Assembly: GCF_009765995.1 (NCBI RefSeq) | Contig: NZ_LMUI01000013.1 | Location: forward strand, 125,117-189,116 | Length of the DNA stretch: 64,000 nucleotides | Source of the DNA: Methylocapsa sp. S129 | GTDB taxonomy: Bacteria > Pseudomonadota > Alphaproteobacteria > Rhizobiales > Beijerinckiaceae | Direction of reading: 5' to 3' | Part shown: positions 1,071 through 8,662 of the stretch, one piece after another | Numbering within the stretch: position 1 is the stretch's first letter | How the letters are laid out: every line of letters starts with the position of its first letter | Translations under genes and position numbers: made by a program | Notes under the pieces: generated by a model | What the model was told of the DNA's origin: nothing | The model's input: the letters and a program-made list of their open reading frames with translations, nothing else | Databases searched by the model: none

Positions 1071-2519
1071 TCAAGCCGTGGTCGAGAGATGTTGCGCCGC
1101 ATAGGCCCGCCATGGGCGCCAGAGTTCGGCGCGCGCGAGGAGTTCGCCAGCAAGCGGCCGTCGACCTTCGGCATCGATCAGCGCAGGCGCAAGACTGACC
1201 TCGGCTGCGGAAAACGCGTCGGGCTCGCGCAGCAGACGCGCGGCAATATATTGCGCCGTGGATTCATCCATGCCGCGGACGGACCGCAGCCGCTGCGCGG
1301 TCTCGTCCAACCCGCGATGCGCGCCAAACAGATGGGGATCGGCCGCAATGGCGGCGGCGATGGCGGCGATCGTCGCCGCCGCGTCTTTGGAAATATCGAG
1401 GACCGCCAAATCCGCGGCCGCCAGGACGTCCGGCCGCGGGAACAGCGTCGTGAGCGTGCGATCCGGCGCCGCCAGAGGTTCGCCATGCGCGGCGGCGAGC
1501 CGCCCCGCGAGAGGGGTCGCCGCGAGAATCGTGTTCCGCTGCTCCAGAACCACGCGCACGGCGAGTTCGAACCCGTCCCACGCGCCCGGCGCGCGCAGCC
1601 CCGGCCGCGCTGCGACCAAAGGCGCCAGCGCCGGATCTTGCACAAGATGAGCGCCGATGGCGACAGGGTCGGCGGCCAGATCGAACACGCGCCGCAGCCG
1701 GGCGATGATCGCCGGCAGCGCCGACAATTTGGGAAAGCGGATCGTCGCGCGCAGCGCATGGCCCTCGCCGGGCCTCACCGAGACGCTCCCTTGCACGCCG
1801 TCGAGTTCGATGGTTCGCGAATAGCTGTCGTCGGCGACGGTTTCGACGCCCGGAATGGCGCGCAGCCGCAGAAAGTCCAGCATGGCCGGCCAATCATAGG
1901 GCGGCTGATAGCGCAGCAACAGGCTGACGTCGCCCCGCGCTCCCGCCGAAATCTCCGGCTGGTTCGCGCGCCGCAAGGCGCCTGGCGGCCGGCTGAACAA
2001 CGTCTGGAAAGTCTCATTGAACCTGCGGACGCTGCCAAAGCCCGAAGCAAAAGCGACTTCAGTCATCGGCAGACGTGTTTCGTGGATCAATTGTTTGGCC
2101 AGGAGAACGCGGCGGGTCTGCGCGACGGCGACGGGCGAAGCGCCGAGATGCTGGCGGAACAGGCGGCGCAACTGCCGCTCCCCGACCCCGAGCCGATTGG
2201 CCAAGGCATCGACATCCGCCGCATCCAGCGCCCCCAGTTCAATCAGGGCGAGAGCGCGGGACACGGTATTGGATGTTCCTCGCCAGGCGCCAAGATCCGG
2301 CGCCGTCTCCGGCCGGCACCGCAGGCACGGGCGGAACCCGGCCTCCTGCGCCGCCGCCGCGGTGGGATAGAAGTTCACATTCTGCGCGCGCGGCGTGCGC
2401 GCCGGGCAGACGGGCCGACAGTAAATGCCCGTCGTCTTCACGCCGATGAACAAGCGCCCGTCGAAACGGGCGTCGCGCTGGCTGATCGCGCGGTAGCAGG
2501 CGTCGTGATCGAGATCCAT
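1071..2519 (-). CDS. Ada-AlkA hybrid: methylphosphotriester sensor/regulator fused to 3-methyladenine DNA glycosylase
   Basis: This is a 482-residue three-part protein. The N-terminal Ada zinc domain has four cysteines at C34, C38, C65 and C68, each four residues before the E. coli Ada set, so C34 should be the methyl-phosphotriester acceptor. An AraC-type DNA-binding domain follows (about 85-185), then AlkA N-terminal and HhH-GPD domains (about 195-475). The Ada methylguanine methyltransferase domain is absent; the divergent ogt gene supplies that activity. The family catalyses release of alkylated bases from DNA. One oddity: by hand alignment with E. coli AlkA, the catalytic Asp (Asp238) position is Glu440 here (codon 1200-1202), inside a PDAFSAAEVSL stretch. 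Confidence 0.92.
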   Translation of the reverse strand: MDLDHDACYRAISQRDARFDGRLFIGVKTTGIYCRPVCPARTPRAQNVNFYPTAAAAQEAGFRPCLRCRPETAPDLGAWRGTSNTVSRALALIELGALDAADVDALANRLGVGERQLRRLFRQHLGASPVAVAQTRRVLLAKQLIHETRLPMTEVAFASGFGSVRRFNETFQTLFSRPPGALRRANQPEISAGARGDVSLLLRYQPPYDWPAMLDFLRLRAIPGVETVADDSYSRTIELDGVQGSVSVRPGEGHALRATIRFPKLSALPAIIARLRRVFDLAADPVAIGAHLVQDPALAPLVAARPGLRAPGAWDGFELAVRVVLEQRNTILAATPLAGRLAAAHGEPLAAPDRTLTTLFPRPDVLAAADLAVLDISKDAAATIAAIAAAIAADPHLFGAHRGLDETAQRLRSVRGMDESTAQYIAARLLREPDAFSAAEVSLAPALIDAEGRRPLAGELLARAELWRPWRAYAAQHLSTTA

Positions 2520-2554
2520 GCGTTAGATATGTTGTGAAAGGCCGCCCCCGTCTA

Positions 2555-2613
2555 GCGGTTTTCGGACATGGTCATTTCCGCGACGTGGCGGGATGACGGT
2601 GTCCGAAAACCGC
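2555..2613. promoter_or_regulatory. Perfect 14-bp inverted repeat between the divergent alkylation-repair genes
   Basis: GCGGTTTTCGGACA at 2555-2568 is exactly mirrored by its reverse complement at 2600-2613, with a second GTCAT/ATGAC pair inside. It sits between the starts of ada-alkA (2519, minus) and ogt (2669, plus). It could be a shared operator for Ada-type control, or a dispersed palindromic repeat of the type common in Rhizobiales. The sequence alone does not decide. Confidence 0.5.
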
Positions 2614-2668
2614 CAGACGCCGACAGCCGCCCGGGCGATGGTCACGGCGTCGTTTGCCGGAGATCGCC

Positions 2669-3220
2669 ATGTCTGTCCAAACCTTCCATCTCGAACGCGC
2701 GAGCACGCCGACCGGCGTCATGCTGATCGTCACCGATGACCAGCATCGCCTGCGCGCCGTGGACTGGGAGGATCACGAAGATCGGATGTGGCGGTTGTTC
2801 CGGCGCCGCTATGGCGAGAACGCGATCGCGCTCGATAAGGCGCAAAACGTCTCGACGGCCAGACGCGCGCTCGACGCCTATTTCGAGGGCGATTGGGGCG
2901 CCGTCGCCCAGACGCCGGTCGCAACAAACGGAACGGAATTCCAGAGCGCGGTCTGGGCCGCGCTGCGGCAGATCCCGGCGGGAGCCACCCTCAGCTATGG
3001 CGCTCTGGCGGCGCGGCTTGACCGGCCCAAGGCGATGCGCGCCGTCGGCCTCGCCAATGGCGCCAATCCGATCGCGATCTTCGTTCCCTGTCACCGGGTG
3101 ATTGGCGCCGACGCGTCACTGACCGGCTTTGGCGGCGGCATCCACCGCAAACGCTGGCTGCTGGCGCACGAGAGCGGCGCCGCGCCGGTTTTGCAGTCGG
3201 TTCAACAGGAGACCGCATGA
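2669..3220 (+). CDS. ogt: Methylated-DNA--[protein]-cysteine S-methyltransferase
   Basis: This 183-residue protein has the full MGMT signature IFVPCHRVIG, with acceptor Cys141, and the upstream winged-helix segment (about residues 88-130) that flips the damaged base. It transfers a methyl group from O6-methylguanine in DNA irreversibly to itself. I chose ATG 2669 because a GGAG motif precedes it; a TTG at 2654 in the same frame is less likely. It is divergent from the Ada-AlkA hybrid, which lacks this domain. Its stop overlaps the next start by 4 bp (ATGA). Confidence 0.93.
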   Translation: MSVQTFHLERASTPTGVMLIVTDDQHRLRAVDWEDHEDRMWRLFRRRYGENAIALDKAQNVSTARRALDAYFEGDWGAVAQTPVATNGTEFQSAVWAALRQIPAGATLSYGALAARLDRPKAMRAVGLANGANPIAIFVPCHRVIGADASLTGFGGGIHRKRWLLAHESGAAPVLQSVQQETA

Positions 3221-3659: not shown

Positions 3660-4667
3660 TTACTTCCAGCACCGGCCGGAATAATCGATCGCATAAAGCT
3701 CCGGCTTGGCGGCGATGGCGGCCATGCCGACCAGCACAGCGTCGGCATGGGTCACCAGCCGCGTCGGAATGCGGCGCGCCATCGCGTCGACCGGGGCCTT
3801 GGCCTCGAAGGCGGCGCGAAACGCCTTCTCGTCGAGAAGATCGAGAATGCGCGGCAACACGCCGCCGGACAGCGTGACGCCGCCCGTCGCGACGAAGGTC
3901 ACGCCCATGTCGCCGGCAAACCGGGCGATGAGCCGCCAGTAGAGAGCGACCGTCGCCGCCTCGTCGCCCGCGCGATTCTGATGCGCGCGATCGACGATCG
4001 CCGCCCCATCCAGCCCTTCGGCCGGCTTGCACAGAGACGCCAGCCGCGCCGCATGCAGCCGCACGAGCCCGGGACCGGCCATCACGCTTTCGGTGGTGAC
4101 GCGGCCATACACGCGCTCCAGATGCGGCCAGATCGCCGCCTCCTCGTCGTCGATTGGCCCGAAATCAGTATGGCAGGCCTCAGAAGCCAGCGGCGTATGG
4201 CGCCCCGCCGCTTCGACAAGGGCGCCGACGCCAAGGCCAGTGCCGGGCCCCAGAATGACCTGTGGACCGCTGCCGGGAGAAAAGCGCGCCGGCCCGATCA
4301 GCCGCGCCCATTGATCGGGAATGGTCGGCAGCGACAAAGCCTGCGCCTCGAAATCATTGAGCAGCAGCCCCTGGTCGAGGCCGACCGCCTTGGCGACCTT
4401 CGGCCCGTCCATCAGCCATGGCGCGTTGGTGAGCTTGAGCGTGCGCCCATCGACCGGCCCGGCCCCGCAGGCGATGACCGAACGCGGCCGGGCGCCGAGC
4501 TTGGCCGCCGCCGCCTCGATCGCTTCGCCAAGCCCTGGATATTCGTGAGTCTTCAAATGGACCGCCTCGCCCGGAGGCGAATCGGGCGCGCTCTTCAGGG
4601 CGAAGCGCACATTGGTGCCGCCGGTATCGCAGACGAAGATGGGAAAGGGAAAGGATATCGCGCTCAT
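3660..4667 (-). CDS. glk: Glucokinase
   Basis: This 335-residue protein phosphorylates glucose with ATP to glucose 6-phosphate. It shows the phosphate-binding motif DTGGTN at residues 14-19 near the N-terminus, the catalytic LLNDFEAQ segment, the GPGTGLGVGAL adenosine/phosphate loop, and EACHTDFGP. All are typical of bacterial Glk of the E. coli type. I placed the start at ATG 4667, which leaves the expected short N-terminus before DTGGTN; the frame extends upstream to 4733 but that part has no family similarity. It converges on the SnoaL-like gene and stands apart from the glycogen operon at 48-60 kb, whose products would generate free glucose. Confidence 0.93.
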   Translation of the reverse strand: MSAISFPFPIFVCDTGGTNVRFALKSAPDSPPGEAVHLKTHEYPGLGEAIEAAAAKLGARPRSVIACGAGPVDGRTLKLTNAPWLMDGPKVAKAVGLDQGLLLNDFEAQALSLPTIPDQWARLIGPARFSPGSGPQVILGPGTGLGVGALVEAAGRHTPLASEACHTDFGPIDDEEAAIWPHLERVYGRVTTESVMAGPGLVRLHAARLASLCKPAEGLDGAAIVDRAHQNRAGDEAATVALYWRLIARFAGDMGVTFVATGGVTLSGGVLPRILDLLDEKAFRAAFEAKAPVDAMARRIPTRLVTHADAVLVGMAAIAAKPELYAIDYSGRCWK

Positions 4668-4771
4668 GGCGCCATTCACAGGAAAGGAGGGGCCGGCGTC
4701 AAGATGCCGGCTGGCGCGCGCTGTCGGACGCAAAATGATTTACGCTCGCGCCAGGAGGCGAATCGCGCGCG

Positions 4772-4921
4772 ATGGACAAGCTAGGTTTCTACGAATTCTT
4801 CTGCGGCGGCGGCATGGCGCGCCGAGCGAACCATTCAACTCGCGCATCGGTGCAACTCGAATGGAATATCGGCGAAGACGATTGCTTATCCAATTTACCG
4901 CCTGTAAAGAACGAAGAGTGA
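4772..4921 (+). pseudogene. 5' stump of an older C5-cytosine methyltransferase gene (dcm)
   Basis: ATG 4772 opens a frame whose first 17 residues, MDKLGFYEFFCGGGMAR, match the N-terminus of the intact methyltransferase at 5079 (MAQFTFCEFFAGGGMAR), including motif I (F-x-GGGMAR). Identity is 11 of 17 by eye. An AGGAGG lies at 4753-4758. After about base 4825 the frame reads unrelated residues and stops at 4919-4921, so similarity ends abruptly. Together with the 3' stump at 6886-7071 it looks like the remains of a resident dcm whose middle was replaced by the R-M pair. An alternative reading is a duplicated start region of the incoming gene, but the codons differ too much for a recent duplication. 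Confidence 0.65.
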
Positions 4922-5078
4922 ACCTGTTCGGCGCTCACTGAGTCGATTTGCCGATCGACTGTTTGTTGCCGTCGTACGCCATCCACAGAAGAGTCACACC
5001 AATCCTACGAACTCGGAGAAGGGCAGTTTCGAAAGTTAGCCGCTCACTCTAGTCTCGGATCGGGAGACGGTCGTCGAC

Positions 5079-6254
5079 ATGGCCCAATTTACATTTTGCG
5101 AATTTTTTGCTGGCGGCGGTATGGCGCGCGCCGGGCTCGGTGTTTCATGGCGCTGCCTGTTCGCCAACGACTTCGACGAGATGAAAGTATCGACCTACGA
5201 GGCCAATTGGGGTTGCGGGGACATTAAGCACGGCGATGTCGCCAAGCTTACGCTAGCCGACCTGCCAGCCAAGACCGTCGACCTTTCATGGGCGTCATTT
5301 CCCTGCCAAGATCTTTCGCTCGCTGGCGACTATCGAGGCCTCGGTCGCGAGCGCGACGACGCCAAGACGCGGTCCGGAACGTTTTGGCCGTTCTGGAAGC
5401 TGATGCGTGGCCTCGTTCAAGACGGCCGCGCCCCACGCGCCATCGTTCTTGAGAATGTCTACGGTTGCTTGACCTCCCACGGCGGCAAGGACTTTGCCGC
5501 AATCGCTTCGGCCCTTTCGGGATCGGATTACCGTTTCGGAGCTGTGGTGATCAACGCGGCTCATTTCGTCCCGCAGTCGCGCCCGCGCGTATTCTTCATC
5601 GCTATCCGCAAGGGTGAGACGATCCCGGAAGGGCTCACAACCGAGGGTCCGCAGCGGAGCTGGCATCCGGCGTCGCTCCTCGGAGCGCATGCCGCAATGA
5701 CCGACGAAGCGAAGAGAAAATGGGTTTGGTGGAACGTCCCGATGCCCGCCGTCCGAAATATGGTCTTCGCGGACCTTATTGAAGAGAATCCGACAAGCGT
5801 GAAATGGCATAATGCCGCCGAAACTAAGTACCTGCTCGGGCTGATGTCGCCATTGAACCGCGATAAGGTTGCGAACGCCAGAAAATCCGGGCGCCGTATA
5901 GTGGGCGCAATCTACAGACGCACACGTCCCGATGAAAAAGGCATCAAGCGCCAGCGCGCGGAAGTCCGCTTCGACGATATCTCCGGATGCCTGCGCACGC
6001 CAGCAGGCGGCTCTTCTCGCCAAACCATTCTCGTGGTCGAAGGCAAGACGATACGTTCGCGACTCTTATCATCTCGCGAAGCAGCGCGGCTTATGGGGTT
6101 GAATGACGACTACTTGCTTCCTGCACGTTACAACGAAGCTTATCATGTGTGTGGCGACGGGGTTTGCGTGCCCGTGGTGCGGCACCTCGCGGAGCGCGTT
6201 CTAGAACCGATGTTGGCGACAAATCGAGCAGAAGAATTAATCGCGGCGGAGTAG
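5079..6254 (+). CDS. DNA (cytosine-5-)-methyltransferase of the R-M pair
   Basis: This 391-residue enzyme transfers methyl from S-adenosylmethionine to cytosine C5 in a specific DNA site. Motifs appear in canonical order: motif I FFAGGGMARAGLG (9-21), motif IV SFPCQDLS with catalytic Cys76, motif VI ENV (125-127), motif VIII QSRPR (166-170), a target-recognition region (about 190-320), and motif X GDGVCVPVVRHLAERVLEP at the C-terminus. GC is visibly lower than in the flanking genes. The next gene, a GIY-YIG nuclease, begins 3 bp after the stop, so the two form an operon. The likely role is protecting host DNA from that nuclease. If the nuclease is truly Eco29kI-like the site could be CCGCGG, but this is inference. 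Confidence 0.95.
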   Translation: MAQFTFCEFFAGGGMARAGLGVSWRCLFANDFDEMKVSTYEANWGCGDIKHGDVAKLTLADLPAKTVDLSWASFPCQDLSLAGDYRGLGRERDDAKTRSGTFWPFWKLMRGLVQDGRAPRAIVLENVYGCLTSHGGKDFAAIASALSGSDYRFGAVVINAAHFVPQSRPRVFFIAIRKGETIPEGLTTEGPQRSWHPASLLGAHAAMTDEAKRKWVWWNVPMPAVRNMVFADLIEENPTSVKWHNAAETKYLLGLMSPLNRDKVANARKSGRRIVGAIYRRTRPDEKGIKRQRAEVRFDDISGCLRTPAGGSSRQTILVVEGKTIRSRLLSSREAARLMGLNDDYLLPARYNEAYHVCGDGVCVPVVRHLAERVLEPMLATNRAEELIAAE

Positions 6255-6257
6255 GGA

Positions 6258-6839
6258 ATGGCGATAGACCTAGCCTTCCGAAGCAAGGCAGTTCGTACGC
6301 TCACAAACGAAATCGGCTGTTATGTTCTTTGCGATCTCGATCAGGTGCCTATCTATGTCGGGCAGTCTGTCGATGGTATCCGCGCCCGAGTAAATCGACA
6401 TCTCACATCAGCTAGGAGCGACATCATCGCGAACCGGCAAGTCGACGTGTGGGAGATCGCCTGGGTCTGGGCTTACCCTGTCGGAAACAGGGCGGATATA
6501 GGCGCCGTCGAGGACGCGCTTTTTCATGAGTTCCACGCTCGGTCTGCTCTTATGAATGGCAAAGTGCCGAAGCTACCGCCACGGAGGACAAGAGTACCGG
6601 AGCCGACTCAGAAAATTCAAGTGATGGCGAACGCTGAAATTAAGGAAAAGAAAGACCCGGCGCTACGCCTCCCACGCCAAGCTGAGCACTATCGCCAGAT
6701 CGTGGGCCACTTTCTGGCAGTGAAGAACTCCAAGGAAATCGCGGTCGCTATCCAAGCACACTTTCAACGGCTCCAGAAGTACCACCGAGAGCTACTTGGC
6801 CTTGCCAGGGAGGTAGAAGGCGATAGCGGCGACGACTAA
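6258..6839 (+). CDS. Eco29kI-like GIY-YIG type II restriction endonuclease
   Basis: The protein has 193 residues, close to R.Eco29kI (214). It shows a GIY-YIG nuclease core: the GCYVL strand (20-24), IYVGQS (32-37, Tyr33), R44 and H48 spaced as Arg/His in Eco29kI, E85 in an AVEDALFHEF helix (metal ligand), and N100 in ALMNGK. These would cut duplex DNA at the site protected by the adjacent methyltransferase. The C-terminal 60 residues are charged and helical. It is downstream of the methylase by 3 bp, so the methylase is translated first. A stand-alone GIY-YIG repair or homing protein is possible, but the tight pairing with a C5 methylase makes restriction much more likely. Confidence 0.85.
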   Translation: MAIDLAFRSKAVRTLTNEIGCYVLCDLDQVPIYVGQSVDGIRARVNRHLTSARSDIIANRQVDVWEIAWVWAYPVGNRADIGAVEDALFHEFHARSALMNGKVPKLPPRRTRVPEPTQKIQVMANAEIKEKKDPALRLPRQAEHYRQIVGHFLAVKNSKEIAVAIQAHFQRLQKYHRELLGLAREVEGDSGDD

Positions 6840-6885
6840 AGCGTGGAACTACTCGGAGGTGAGCCTGATAACGTTACAATCCTGA

Positions 6886-7071
6886 GTGGCGCTCTTGTTT
6901 ATGACATCTGACGTTTATGAGCCCGCGCTGCGGGCTAAGGTTTTCGAAACCATCCTCATCGGCGACGGAGTCGCGGCACCGTTCGGGCGTTTCTTGAGCG
7001 ACTTGCTTCTTCCGCTAACTAGGGCGCGAAGCGAAGCCAAAAGGGAACCGACGCGCGGCCCGCCCGCATGA
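6886..7071 (+). pseudogene. 3' stump of the older dcm gene, still coupled to vsr
   Basis: The frame reads ILIGDGVAAPFGRFLSDLLLPL near its end, which matches motif X of C5 methyltransferases (compare GDGVCVPVVRHLAERVLEP in the intact gene), then a short basic tail to TGA 7069-7071. No catalytic motif precedes it; similarity fades upstream of about 6945. The TGA overlaps the ATG of vsr (ATGA at 7068-7071), as expected for an intact dcm-vsr operon. The 5' counterpart is at 4772. A small independent protein from GTG 6886 cannot be excluded, but motif X alone has no known function. Confidence 0.65.
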
Positions 7072-7499
7072 GGGCCGCGGGCAAACCCACTGCGGAGCGC
7101 TCCGCGATCATGCGCGCCGTCAAGTCGCGCGACACGGCGCCCGAGCTTATGCTGCGCACAATGCTGCGCAGCATAAAGCCGGGCTATCGGCTGCATCGAG
7201 CCGATCTGCCGGGCAAGCCCGATATCGTCTATGGCCCGCGCCGCCTCGCCATTTTCATGCATGGCTGCTTCTGGCACGGCCATGATTGCAAGCGCGGCGC
7301 CCGTGCGCCAAAAGACAACGCCGCCTATTGGAGCGCCAAGATCGCCAGAAATCGCGCGCGCGACGCGACCCATCTCAAAGCACTGGCGGCGCTCGGCTGG
7401 CGCACGCTCGTCGTGTTCGAATGCGCGCTGAAGGACAAGCCGGCGCTCGAACGCCGTTTGCGGGATGCCCTGGAGGCCGGCGAAGGAGGTCAGCGATGA
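7068..7499 (+). CDS. vsr: Very short patch repair endonuclease
   Basis: This 143-residue protein nicks DNA 5' of T in T:G mismatches that arise when 5-methylcytosine deaminates. The family pattern is complete: RSAIMRAVKSRDTAPEL (11-27), GYRLHRADLPGKPDIV with catalytic Asp52, FMHGCFWHGHDCKRGARAPK with the zinc and active-site His/Cys cluster (65-74), YWSAKIARNRARD, and a GWRTLVVFEC core strand. Its start overlaps the stop of the dcm 3' stump, and its own stop overlaps the next gene (ATGA). It probably belonged to the resident dcm and now lies 3' of the incoming R-M pair, where 5-methylcytosine repair is still useful. Confidence 0.95.
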   Translation: MRAAGKPTAERSAIMRAVKSRDTAPELMLRTMLRSIKPGYRLHRADLPGKPDIVYGPRRLAIFMHGCFWHGHDCKRGARAPKDNAAYWSAKIARNRARDATHLKALAALGWRTLVVFECALKDKPALERRLRDALEAGEGGQR

Positions 7500-8662
7500 A
7501 GGAACAGGCCGACGCCGAAACGGCGCCACGCAGCCCGTTTTATGGCCCCGAGCACGAGGCGTTCCGTCATTCCATCCGCCGCTTCGTCGCCCGCGAGATC
7601 GAGCCCTATGCGACGCAATGGGACGAGGCCGGAGAATTTCCGCGCGATCTTTATTTGAAGGCCGGCGAGATCGGTTATCTCGGCCTTGGCTATCCCTCGG
7701 AATATGGCGGGTCCGAAGGCGATCGCTTCATGACGATCCTTGCGATGCAAGAACTCGCGCGCGCCGGCTCGGGAGGCGTTTGCGCCGGTCTGTTCAGCCA
7801 TGCCATCGCGGCGCCGCCCATTCTGCGGCGCGGCTCGCCGGAAATGAAGGCGCGCGTGCTGCCGCAAATCCTGTCGGGCCAAAAGATCGCCGCGCTCGCC
7901 ATCACCGAGCCGAGCGGCGGCTCGGATGTCGCCAATTTGCGCACGACAGCCCGGCGCGAGGGCGATCATTATATCGTCAACGGCTCCAAGACTTTCATCA
8001 CCTCGGGCATGCGCGCCGATTTCCTCACCGTCGCAGCGCGCACGGGGGGAACCGGCGCCGGCGGCATCAGCCTGCTGCTGATCGAGGGGAATACGCCCGG
8101 CCTGCAGCGCACGCCGCTCGCCAAAATGGGCTGGTGGGCGTCCGACACCGCGACCCTCTATTTCGACAACTGCCGCGTGCCCGCCGCCAACCTCATCGGC
8201 GAAGAAAGCAGCGGCTTCAAGACGATCATGCTCAATTTCAACGATGAGCGCCTGAACGGCTCGGCGTTCTGCAACGCTTTCTCGCGCGTCTGCCTGGATG
8301 AGGCGATCGCCTATTCCAAACAGCGCGTGACCTTCGGCAAGCCGCTGTCGCATCATCAGGTCATCCGGCATAAACTGGTCGATATGGCGCAGCGCGTCGC
8401 GGCGACGCAGGCCATGCTCGAACTGCTCACCTGGCGCGTCGAGCAGGGCGAAAATCCAGTCGCCGAAATCTGCATGCTCAAGAACCAGGCGACGCAGACC
8501 ATGGCCTTTTGCGCATCGGAGGGCGTGCAGATATTCGGCGGCGCCGGCTTTTTGCGCGGCGCCAAGGTCGAGCGCATCTATCGCGAAGTGAAGGTCAATG
8601 CGATCGGCGCAGGAACCGAGGAGATCATGAAGGAGCTCGCCAGCCGACAAATGGGGATTTGA
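7496..8662 (+). CDS. Acyl-CoA dehydrogenase
   Basis: This 388-residue flavoprotein oxidises an acyl-CoA to the 2-enoyl-CoA, passing electrons to ETF. It has all three ACAD segments: the N-terminal helical domain, the mid beta-domain with [16 protein letters not shown] and the FAD-binding [10 protein letters not shown] strand, and the C-terminal [15 protein letters not shown] helix with IFGGAGFL and a GAGTEEI end. The catalytic base is not in the usual C-terminal IYEGT place. Glu251, in NDERL, sits where isovaleryl- and long-chain-type enzymes place it, which is inference. The gene overlaps vsr by 4 bp, so it may be expressed from the dcm-vsr promoter. The substrate is not determinable. Confidence 0.9.

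Follow-up and report, generated by a model that had tools for sequence, protein, structure and literature searches.

Probable replacement of the core of a resident dcm gene by a restriction–modification cassette with a predicted LexA operator in Methylocapsa sp. S129

The window analysed here is a stretch of 64,000 nucleotides (nt) from Methylocapsa sp. S129 (assembly GCF_009765995.1, contig NZ_LMUI01000013.1, positions 125,117 to 189,116; the genome comprises 6.87 Mb in 62 contigs). Between a divergent glucokinase gene (glk) and the mismatch endonuclease gene vsr it contains a cytosine methylase gene (M) and a predicted restriction nuclease gene (R), bordered by the two ends of a second, dcm-like methylase gene (Table 1). 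The preferred explanation, to which a probability of roughly 0.7 is assigned, is that an M-R pair with its own leader replaced the core of a resident dcm gene, likely by horizontal transfer, and brought with it a predicted LexA operator in front of M. Loci elsewhere are cited by their L numbers.

Table 1. Features of the glk-vsr locus in the window
Feature	Positions	Strand	Evidence and remarks
glk, glucokinase gene, divergent left flank	3660..4733	-	PF02685, E 2.6e-77
5' stump of resident dcm-like gene (start and motif I)	4772..4822	+	Firm match 4786-4822; local alignment z 12.6-18.3 against six dcm genes
Cassette leader	4823..5078	+	GC 52.7%; 5' junction within 4823-4908
Predicted LexA operator, GAACGAAGAGTGAAC	4909..4923	+	GAACN7GAAC form; 155 nt before M start codon
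M, complete C5 cytosine methylase, M-R type	5079..6254	+	PF00145; 70-75% identical to sister M (M-R alleles, L036); clade 99/99
R, predicted GIY-YIG restriction nuclease	6258..6839	+	PF01541; 79-83% identical to R of sister alleles
Tail after R, containing the 3' junction	6840..6948	+	No match above shuffles before about 6949; hairpin near 6920-6936
3' stump of dcm-like gene (motif X)	6949..7071	+	z 5.3-15.9 against four glk-linked dcm genes
vsr (mismatch endonuclease), complete and retained from the resident locus	7068..7499	+	TIGR00632, PF03852; E. coli Vsr 1cw0, E 1.4e-27

Each stump was compared by local DNA alignment, with 200 shuffles for each comparison, with 12 alleles: six dcm genes (L031, L032, L033, L038, L039 and L041, of which L039 is from another genus), four M-R alleles, L036 and L042. 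The 3' stump matches the four glk-linked dcm genes (z scores of 15.9 for L041, 12.3 for L033, 8.3 for L038 and 5.3 for L032), whereas its scores are 0.2 against both dcm genes not linked to glk (L031 and L039) and 0.6-1.5 against the M-R alleles, with L036 and L042 giving 0.9 and 1.2. For the 5' stump the six dcm genes give 12.6-18.3 and the remaining six alleles 5.7-12.0; the conservation of motif I makes this contrast less decisive. The best alignments of both stumps are with the dcm type kept intact at this locus in sister genomes, the outcome on which the preliminary description of this DNA had staked its proposal of a takeover. That description had also assigned a C5-methylase N-terminus with motif I to the frame from 4772 and a motif X end to the frame 6886-7071, and both assignments stand within narrower limits: the 5' stump is firmly dcm-like over 37 nt only (4786-4822, ...YEFFCGGGMAR), with a weak gapped match to L041 extending some codons past 4822 and the remainder of the frame 4772-4921 not recognisably dcm, and in the second frame the dcm match begins only at about 6949. 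In L041 the end points of the stumps lie about 1,000 nt apart, corresponding to the core that is missing from the window; the absence of this core had been taken to indicate replacement rather than clean insertion, and the loss of about 1 kb of dcm agrees with that. The 3' stump contains an extra base relative to L032 and L033 and a 3-base gap relative to L038 and L041.

The junctions can be placed only within zones. Neither 4823-4908 nor 6840-6948 has a DNA match above shuffles among the 12 alleles, and the leader as a whole (4823-5078) is no better than shuffles against any of them. The leader is assigned to the cassette because its LexA-type box and a short block of ATCCACA, 34-72 nt after the start of the box, are common to it and the leaders of the M-R loci L046-L048. 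A string shared by the motif I regions of the stump and of M had been proposed as the point of recombination between related methylase sequences. This crossover is ruled out, as the leader with its box and ATCCACA block lies between the stump and M; the string is outside the junction zone 4823-4908 and reflects coding conservation. Thus, the earlier idea that a mobile pair took over the dcm locus is borne out by the foreign M-R pair in place of the dcm core, while its motif I junction is not. Stump and cassette show no likeness in either junction zone, and for this reason the cassette would have entered by illegitimate recombination. A hairpin after R (about 6920-6936; 51-nt fold, z -2.1) was considered as a terminator and rejected, as it is without a proper T tract; the six terminator-like sites of the region 4600-7600 are not distinct from the shuffles (mean 3.5, s.d. 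1.9).

A search for Vsr in the window genome and 40 relatives gave matches in 23 of the 41, including all ten other genomes of the genus, from each of which the loci were retrieved for comparison. The order glk, solitary dcm, vsr is found in four sister genomes (L032, L033, L038 and L041) and the order glk, M, R, vsr in four others (L034, L035, L037 and L040), the glucokinase left flank being common to these eight of the ten (tblastn). The M-R sister alleles are 79-83% identical to the window in R and 70-73% in M. L031 has dcm-vsr with no glk on the contig; L036 (10800-13700) has an M 75% identical to that of the window, no R on the contig and vsr 9.8 kb away, and this M may have turned solitary. 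No stumps like those of the window occur in the ten sister genomes. All 11 genomes of the genus contain at least one M of the window's methylase family; the window genome has one only, with no second member at E ≤ 1e-60. Within this one genus dcm-vsr, M-R-vsr, the chimera and an M lacking R on its contig all occur, which makes the steps directly comparable, and the window represents one state in an allele series because M-R alleles without stumps occupy the same locus in four of the ten sisters. Relatives with the same restriction–modification (R-M) genes and no intact dcm had been named in advance as speaking against a takeover; the four stumpless M-R sisters are of this kind, while the four other sisters carry an intact dcm.

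In the M tree the window falls inside the M-R clade (support 99/99), apart from the dcm clade (98/96), whereas in the glucokinase tree its companions are three of the four species that carry dcm (support 93/94, which is below the tool's star), with L032 nearest at 77%. The R tree agrees with the M tree, with poor resolution. The content of guanine and cytosine (GC) is 59.0% in M, 55.4% in R and 52.7% in the leader, compared with 68.6% in glk and 66.4% in vsr. The disagreement of the M tree with the glucokinase tree, the match of the stumps to the dcm type and the low GC together argue for horizontal replacement, and that an R-M cassette replaced the resident dcm core appears very probable. Taken alone, this would be a good instance of an already familiar type of event.

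M encodes 391 residues, matches PF00145 over residues 4-374 (E 4.9e-44) and carries motif I, PCQ, ENV and motif X, identifying it as a C5 cytosine DNA methyltransferase. The frames, the methylase motifs, the complete methylase at 5079-6254 and the lower GC of the pair are all as the preliminary description gave them. Its assignment of the nuclease as Eco29kI-like is not upheld by the Pfam profile. R matches the GIY-YIG profile PF01541 (E 3.5e-5 for the window R; a profile match in all five members) and the known structure closest to its predicted structure is the UvrC GIY-YIG domain, identifying R as a GIY-YIG protein by profile and fold, while a profile search with the Eco29kI family PF09517 gave no match in any of the five members at E up to 10; this model works on other nucleases (5.4e-27 for L045 and 2.6e-60 for L172). 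A PDB sequence search with the single R sequence gave no match and a search with the R profile gave two weak matches only (E 0.89 and 1.3). Vsr scores 134.1 bits against TIGR00632, above the curated cut-off of 97.85. The gap between M and R is 3 nt, and 27 of the 30 R loci examined, three of them at contig ends, have M together with R; the R family also occurs on plasmids and a phage. From this adjacency and joint travel M and R are predicted to form a Type II R-M pair, in which R would cut the site protected by M.

The recognition region aligns throughout between dcm and M, with a mean identity of 42% there and 61% in the catalytic part (50 and 69%, respectively, within the dcm genes and 61 and 78% within the M-R alleles), and AExRxD...GCLRT..GGSSR is invariant in all 25 methylases aligned, which suggests that the resident dcm and the cassette M share one target site. 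If this is so, the host would have been under the protection of dcm up to the point at which M assumed that role. The replacement would likely be tolerable, with both enzymes methylating the same site; the genome would thus already be shielded from R, and the retained Vsr would still meet its usual methylation. Avoidance of palindromic 6-mers was examined as a guide to the recognition site in 464 kb of the window genome (the window and L100-L119), and the ratios of observed to expected counts are 0.18 for CAGCTG, 0.35 for AGATCT, 0.78 for CCGCGG, 0.94 for GCCGGC and 1.01 for GGCGCC. The scarcity of CAGCTG (13 found, 74 expected) and AGATCT (33 found, 95 expected) is a separate observation, with other restriction systems perhaps behind it.

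The preliminary description made no mention of the box in the cassette leader. Upstream of M, at 4909-4923, it has the GAACN7GAAC form of the alphaproteobacterial LexA (SOS) regulon, for which GTTC(N7)GTTC is given as the exact LexA consensus of Caulobacter in the accessible text of PMC12907096. The window genome's own lexA and recA have a box of the same form, at about 100 nt (lexA, GAACACAGAGTGAAC) and about 140 nt (recA) before the part of the gene that was matched; the window box differs from that of lexA at two of 15 positions.

To a first set of 30 R-linked loci, from which three without M in the examined stretch and one without an M start were dropped, the same pattern was applied. Of the remaining 26 loci, one of which (L097) has a leader of only 95 nt, 14 have the box no more than 350 nt upstream of M, compared with none of ten M loci without R in the examined stretch. 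Controls in the 26 loci gave one hit with reversed letters and 0, 1, 0 and 0 hits with spacers of 5, 6, 8 and 9, and Markov resamples a mean of 0.33 and a maximum of 3 (n = 500). When L057, L058, L059 and L095 are collapsed, being more than 90% identical in DNA with no other R-linked pair so close, the count becomes 11 of 23. In the boxed loci in which R comes first (L056-L059, L093 and L095, with L068 arranged as R-vsr-M) the box is placed after R, or after vsr, and ahead of M, which is therefore the gene downstream of it. Repeated palindromes, GTGGCGCCAC / TGGCGCCA, were noted downstream of the box between R and M in L056-L059, L093 and L095; they are perhaps the methylase's own site or another operator.

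Vsr matches were found in 92 of 297 genomes of the order, and the best 60 places by E-value were taken as a second set, which leaves out one place of the window genome and L068, L069 and L014. A C5 methylase is present in 50 of the 60 places; after one gene without a start was dropped, 52 genes in 49 loci remained. The box occurs within 400 nt before 17 of these 52 vsr-linked methylases (L158 and L159 come from a single genome and have the same box). The same loci contain 267 other genes of 200 amino acids or more, 11 of which have a box (Fisher p 1.9e-8). Reversed letters gave 1 of 52, spacers of 5, 6, 8 and 9 gave none, and Markov resamples gave a mean of 0.73 and a maximum of 5 (n = 300). 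Neighbours at ten of the 17 boxed methylases are EcoRII (three), MvaI/BcnI (three), NaeI, HNH and a GHKL ATPase (one each), with no hit at one. Two single operons were also noted. The window genome contains a second predicted operon (L045 5786-11104, C27) of M, an Eco29kI-family R (PF09517, E 5.4e-27), Vsr and a GHKL ATPase; a LexA-type box precedes its M by 306 nt, and a short frame lies in the interval. In Roseiarcus fermentans (L027 354-3161) an M-Vsr operon has a third gene that is EcoRII-like by eye and a LexA-type box just before the M frame.

Avoidance of host killing by Type II R-M systems is usually credited to controller (C) proteins, self-repressing methylases and antisense RNA. In the accessible text of the two papers concerned, unbalanced Type II R-M systems induce the SOS response (PMC3874152), as does loss of a solitary methylase in Caulobacter if Vsr is present (PMC12907096). 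The simplest circuit that we infer is a feedback loop: sites short of methylation are broken, the breaks raise M, and M goes on rising until the sites are methylated. LexA would keep the M promoter at a basal level; DNA breaks, including those made by R or Vsr at under-methylated sites, would lead to LexA cleavage; M, together with R in M-R operons, would then rise, methylation would be restored and the breaks would cease. The cassette would in this way borrow the host SOS circuit for the job done elsewhere by C proteins. The takeover would likely have brought this predicted SOS switch to the locus, by which damage, self-cutting included, would raise the methylase supply. Judged from the upstream sequences, LexA control of the methylase is moderately probable in boxed loci generally and somewhat less likely in this window, because no -35 element is recognisable there.

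Several observations weigh against these conclusions. In the glucokinase tree the dcm-bearing L041 stands apart, with a long frame-broken row, and the vsr tree is without resolution. The box is missing in 12 of the 26 R-linked loci, including L052 of the same genus; the 12 also include two betaproteobacterial loci (L053 and L055), the phage locus L094 and one acidobacterial locus, and CTGTN8ACAG was found before M in none of them, L053, L055 and L094 included. Four of the 17 boxes in the second set (L124, L135, L139 and L157) also lie within 400 nt of a divergent gene, a possible target. Nuclease genes adjoin unboxed methylases too (neighbours at ten of the 35 are EcoRII at three, Eco29kI at one, a GHKL ATPase at two, a diguanylate cyclase at two and no hit at two); they are commoner beside boxed ones in this sample of ten and ten, and not confined to them. 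The box has 182 places in the genome and the reversed pattern 204, so there is no genome-wide excess and it is position that matters. In L046-L048 a TTGACA precedes the box by 5 nt, an element that the window lacks, and a promoter-like site was sought in 4600-7600 and not found.

These last two points also favour the view that the window box is a chance or relic match and that the cassette uses another promoter without SOS control, as does the expected frequency of boxes in the window genome, about 0.8 per 100 leaders 350 nt long. Against it, the box is present, with other spacers, upstream of M in three sister M-R alleles, the pattern is specific to the spacing over the 26 and 52 loci, and the window box departs from the genome's own lexA box at two of 15 positions; a chance or relic match is regarded as rather improbable. 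LexA control may alternatively serve defence or repair, with damage raising the whole R-M-Vsr operon against phages, or Vsr to mend mismatches. The box does precede all three genes in M-R-vsr operons, and vsrA of Caulobacter rises on DNA damage in the accessible text of PMC12907096, whereas in the boxed R-first loci listed above M alone is downstream of the box; we regard this purpose as possible, although less probable than control of methylase supply. With respect to the replacement, dcm could first have been broken by an ordinary deletion, with M-R later landing in the remnant and methylating for an unpartnered Vsr. The stumps are indeed worn, with the extra base and 3-base gap described above, and the harm that Vsr without its methylase does in Caulobacter (the same source, PMC12907096, in part) would favour a rescuer; wear could equally have followed replacement, and since a methylase of the family is kept by each of the 11 genomes of the genus there is no example of a stage without one, which makes this order of events unlikely. 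A clean exchange, in which crossovers in glk and in vsr brought in the allele of a sister species, is more improbable still. The M-R alleles at the same address in four sisters would bring matching flanks, yet such an exchange would leave no dcm stumps and the glucokinase follows the dcm-bearing species; it may apply to the four stumpless M-R alleles.

To the left of the locus, Ada/AlkA-like and methylated-DNA methyltransferase-like genes were recognised by eye at window positions 1071-3220, so that several DNA repair genes lie close together.

More broadly, alphaproteobacterial vsr-linked cytosine R-M systems with several unrelated nuclease families might share a LexA operator on the methylase promoter, making the damage alarm a methylation thermostat that replaces C proteins, eases entry into hosts and here let an R-M pair displace a protecting solitary methylase; the chances for and against this wider proposal appear about evenly balanced. 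If true, a LexA operator before M, with nucleases of differing families and in none of the ten R-less loci of this methylase family, would be a simple answer from host machinery, and the locus would make two ideas testable, namely protection by solitary methylases against R-M systems of the same site and the pinning of methylases in genomes by Vsr. It is for the LexA link across vsr-linked methylases that no published description was found in the open-licence literature searched: no account of LexA control of a Type II methylase was found there in the portions of text accessible, and LexA has no occurrences in the accessible text of a 2025 review of R-M biology (PMC12707154).

Comparison with known systems, for which the two principal papers are cited from the accessible parts of their text, places the locus between several of them. 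The ScmA/VsrA pair of Caulobacter crescentus is similar in that a solitary C5 methylase is tied to Vsr, with SOS induction when the methylase is lost and Vsr present, and vsrA has a LexA consensus inside its own frame; it differs in that scmA and vsrA are unlinked and have no R, whereas the window box precedes the M of an R-M pair displacing a solitary methylase (PMC12907096). As with Dcm-Vsr and EcoRII in E. coli, where a solitary methylase can attenuate killing by a same-site R-M system, a solitary and a restriction-linked methylase meet; in the window the R-M pair has replaced the solitary methylase and the single target site is inferred (PMC3874152). Type II systems under C proteins likewise use transcriptional control to balance methylase and nuclease (PMC3874152). 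In the window no C protein gene is seen between the stump, M, R and vsr, and the predicted regulator is the host LexA. Burkholderia phage AH2 (JN564907; L094 1995-4962) carries a related module (R 69% and M 58% identical by tblastn), with Vsr directly after R, between its integrase and excisionase genes and with R annotated as an excinuclease; it differs in being on a phage, in having a hypothetical gene between M and R and in the absence of both GAACN7GAAC and CTGTN8ACAG before M. Mobile R-M units that substitute for resident sequence have reportedly been described by the Kobayashi group. In the present case the replaced gene is itself a methylase related to the incoming one, and both of its ends have been left beside vsr.

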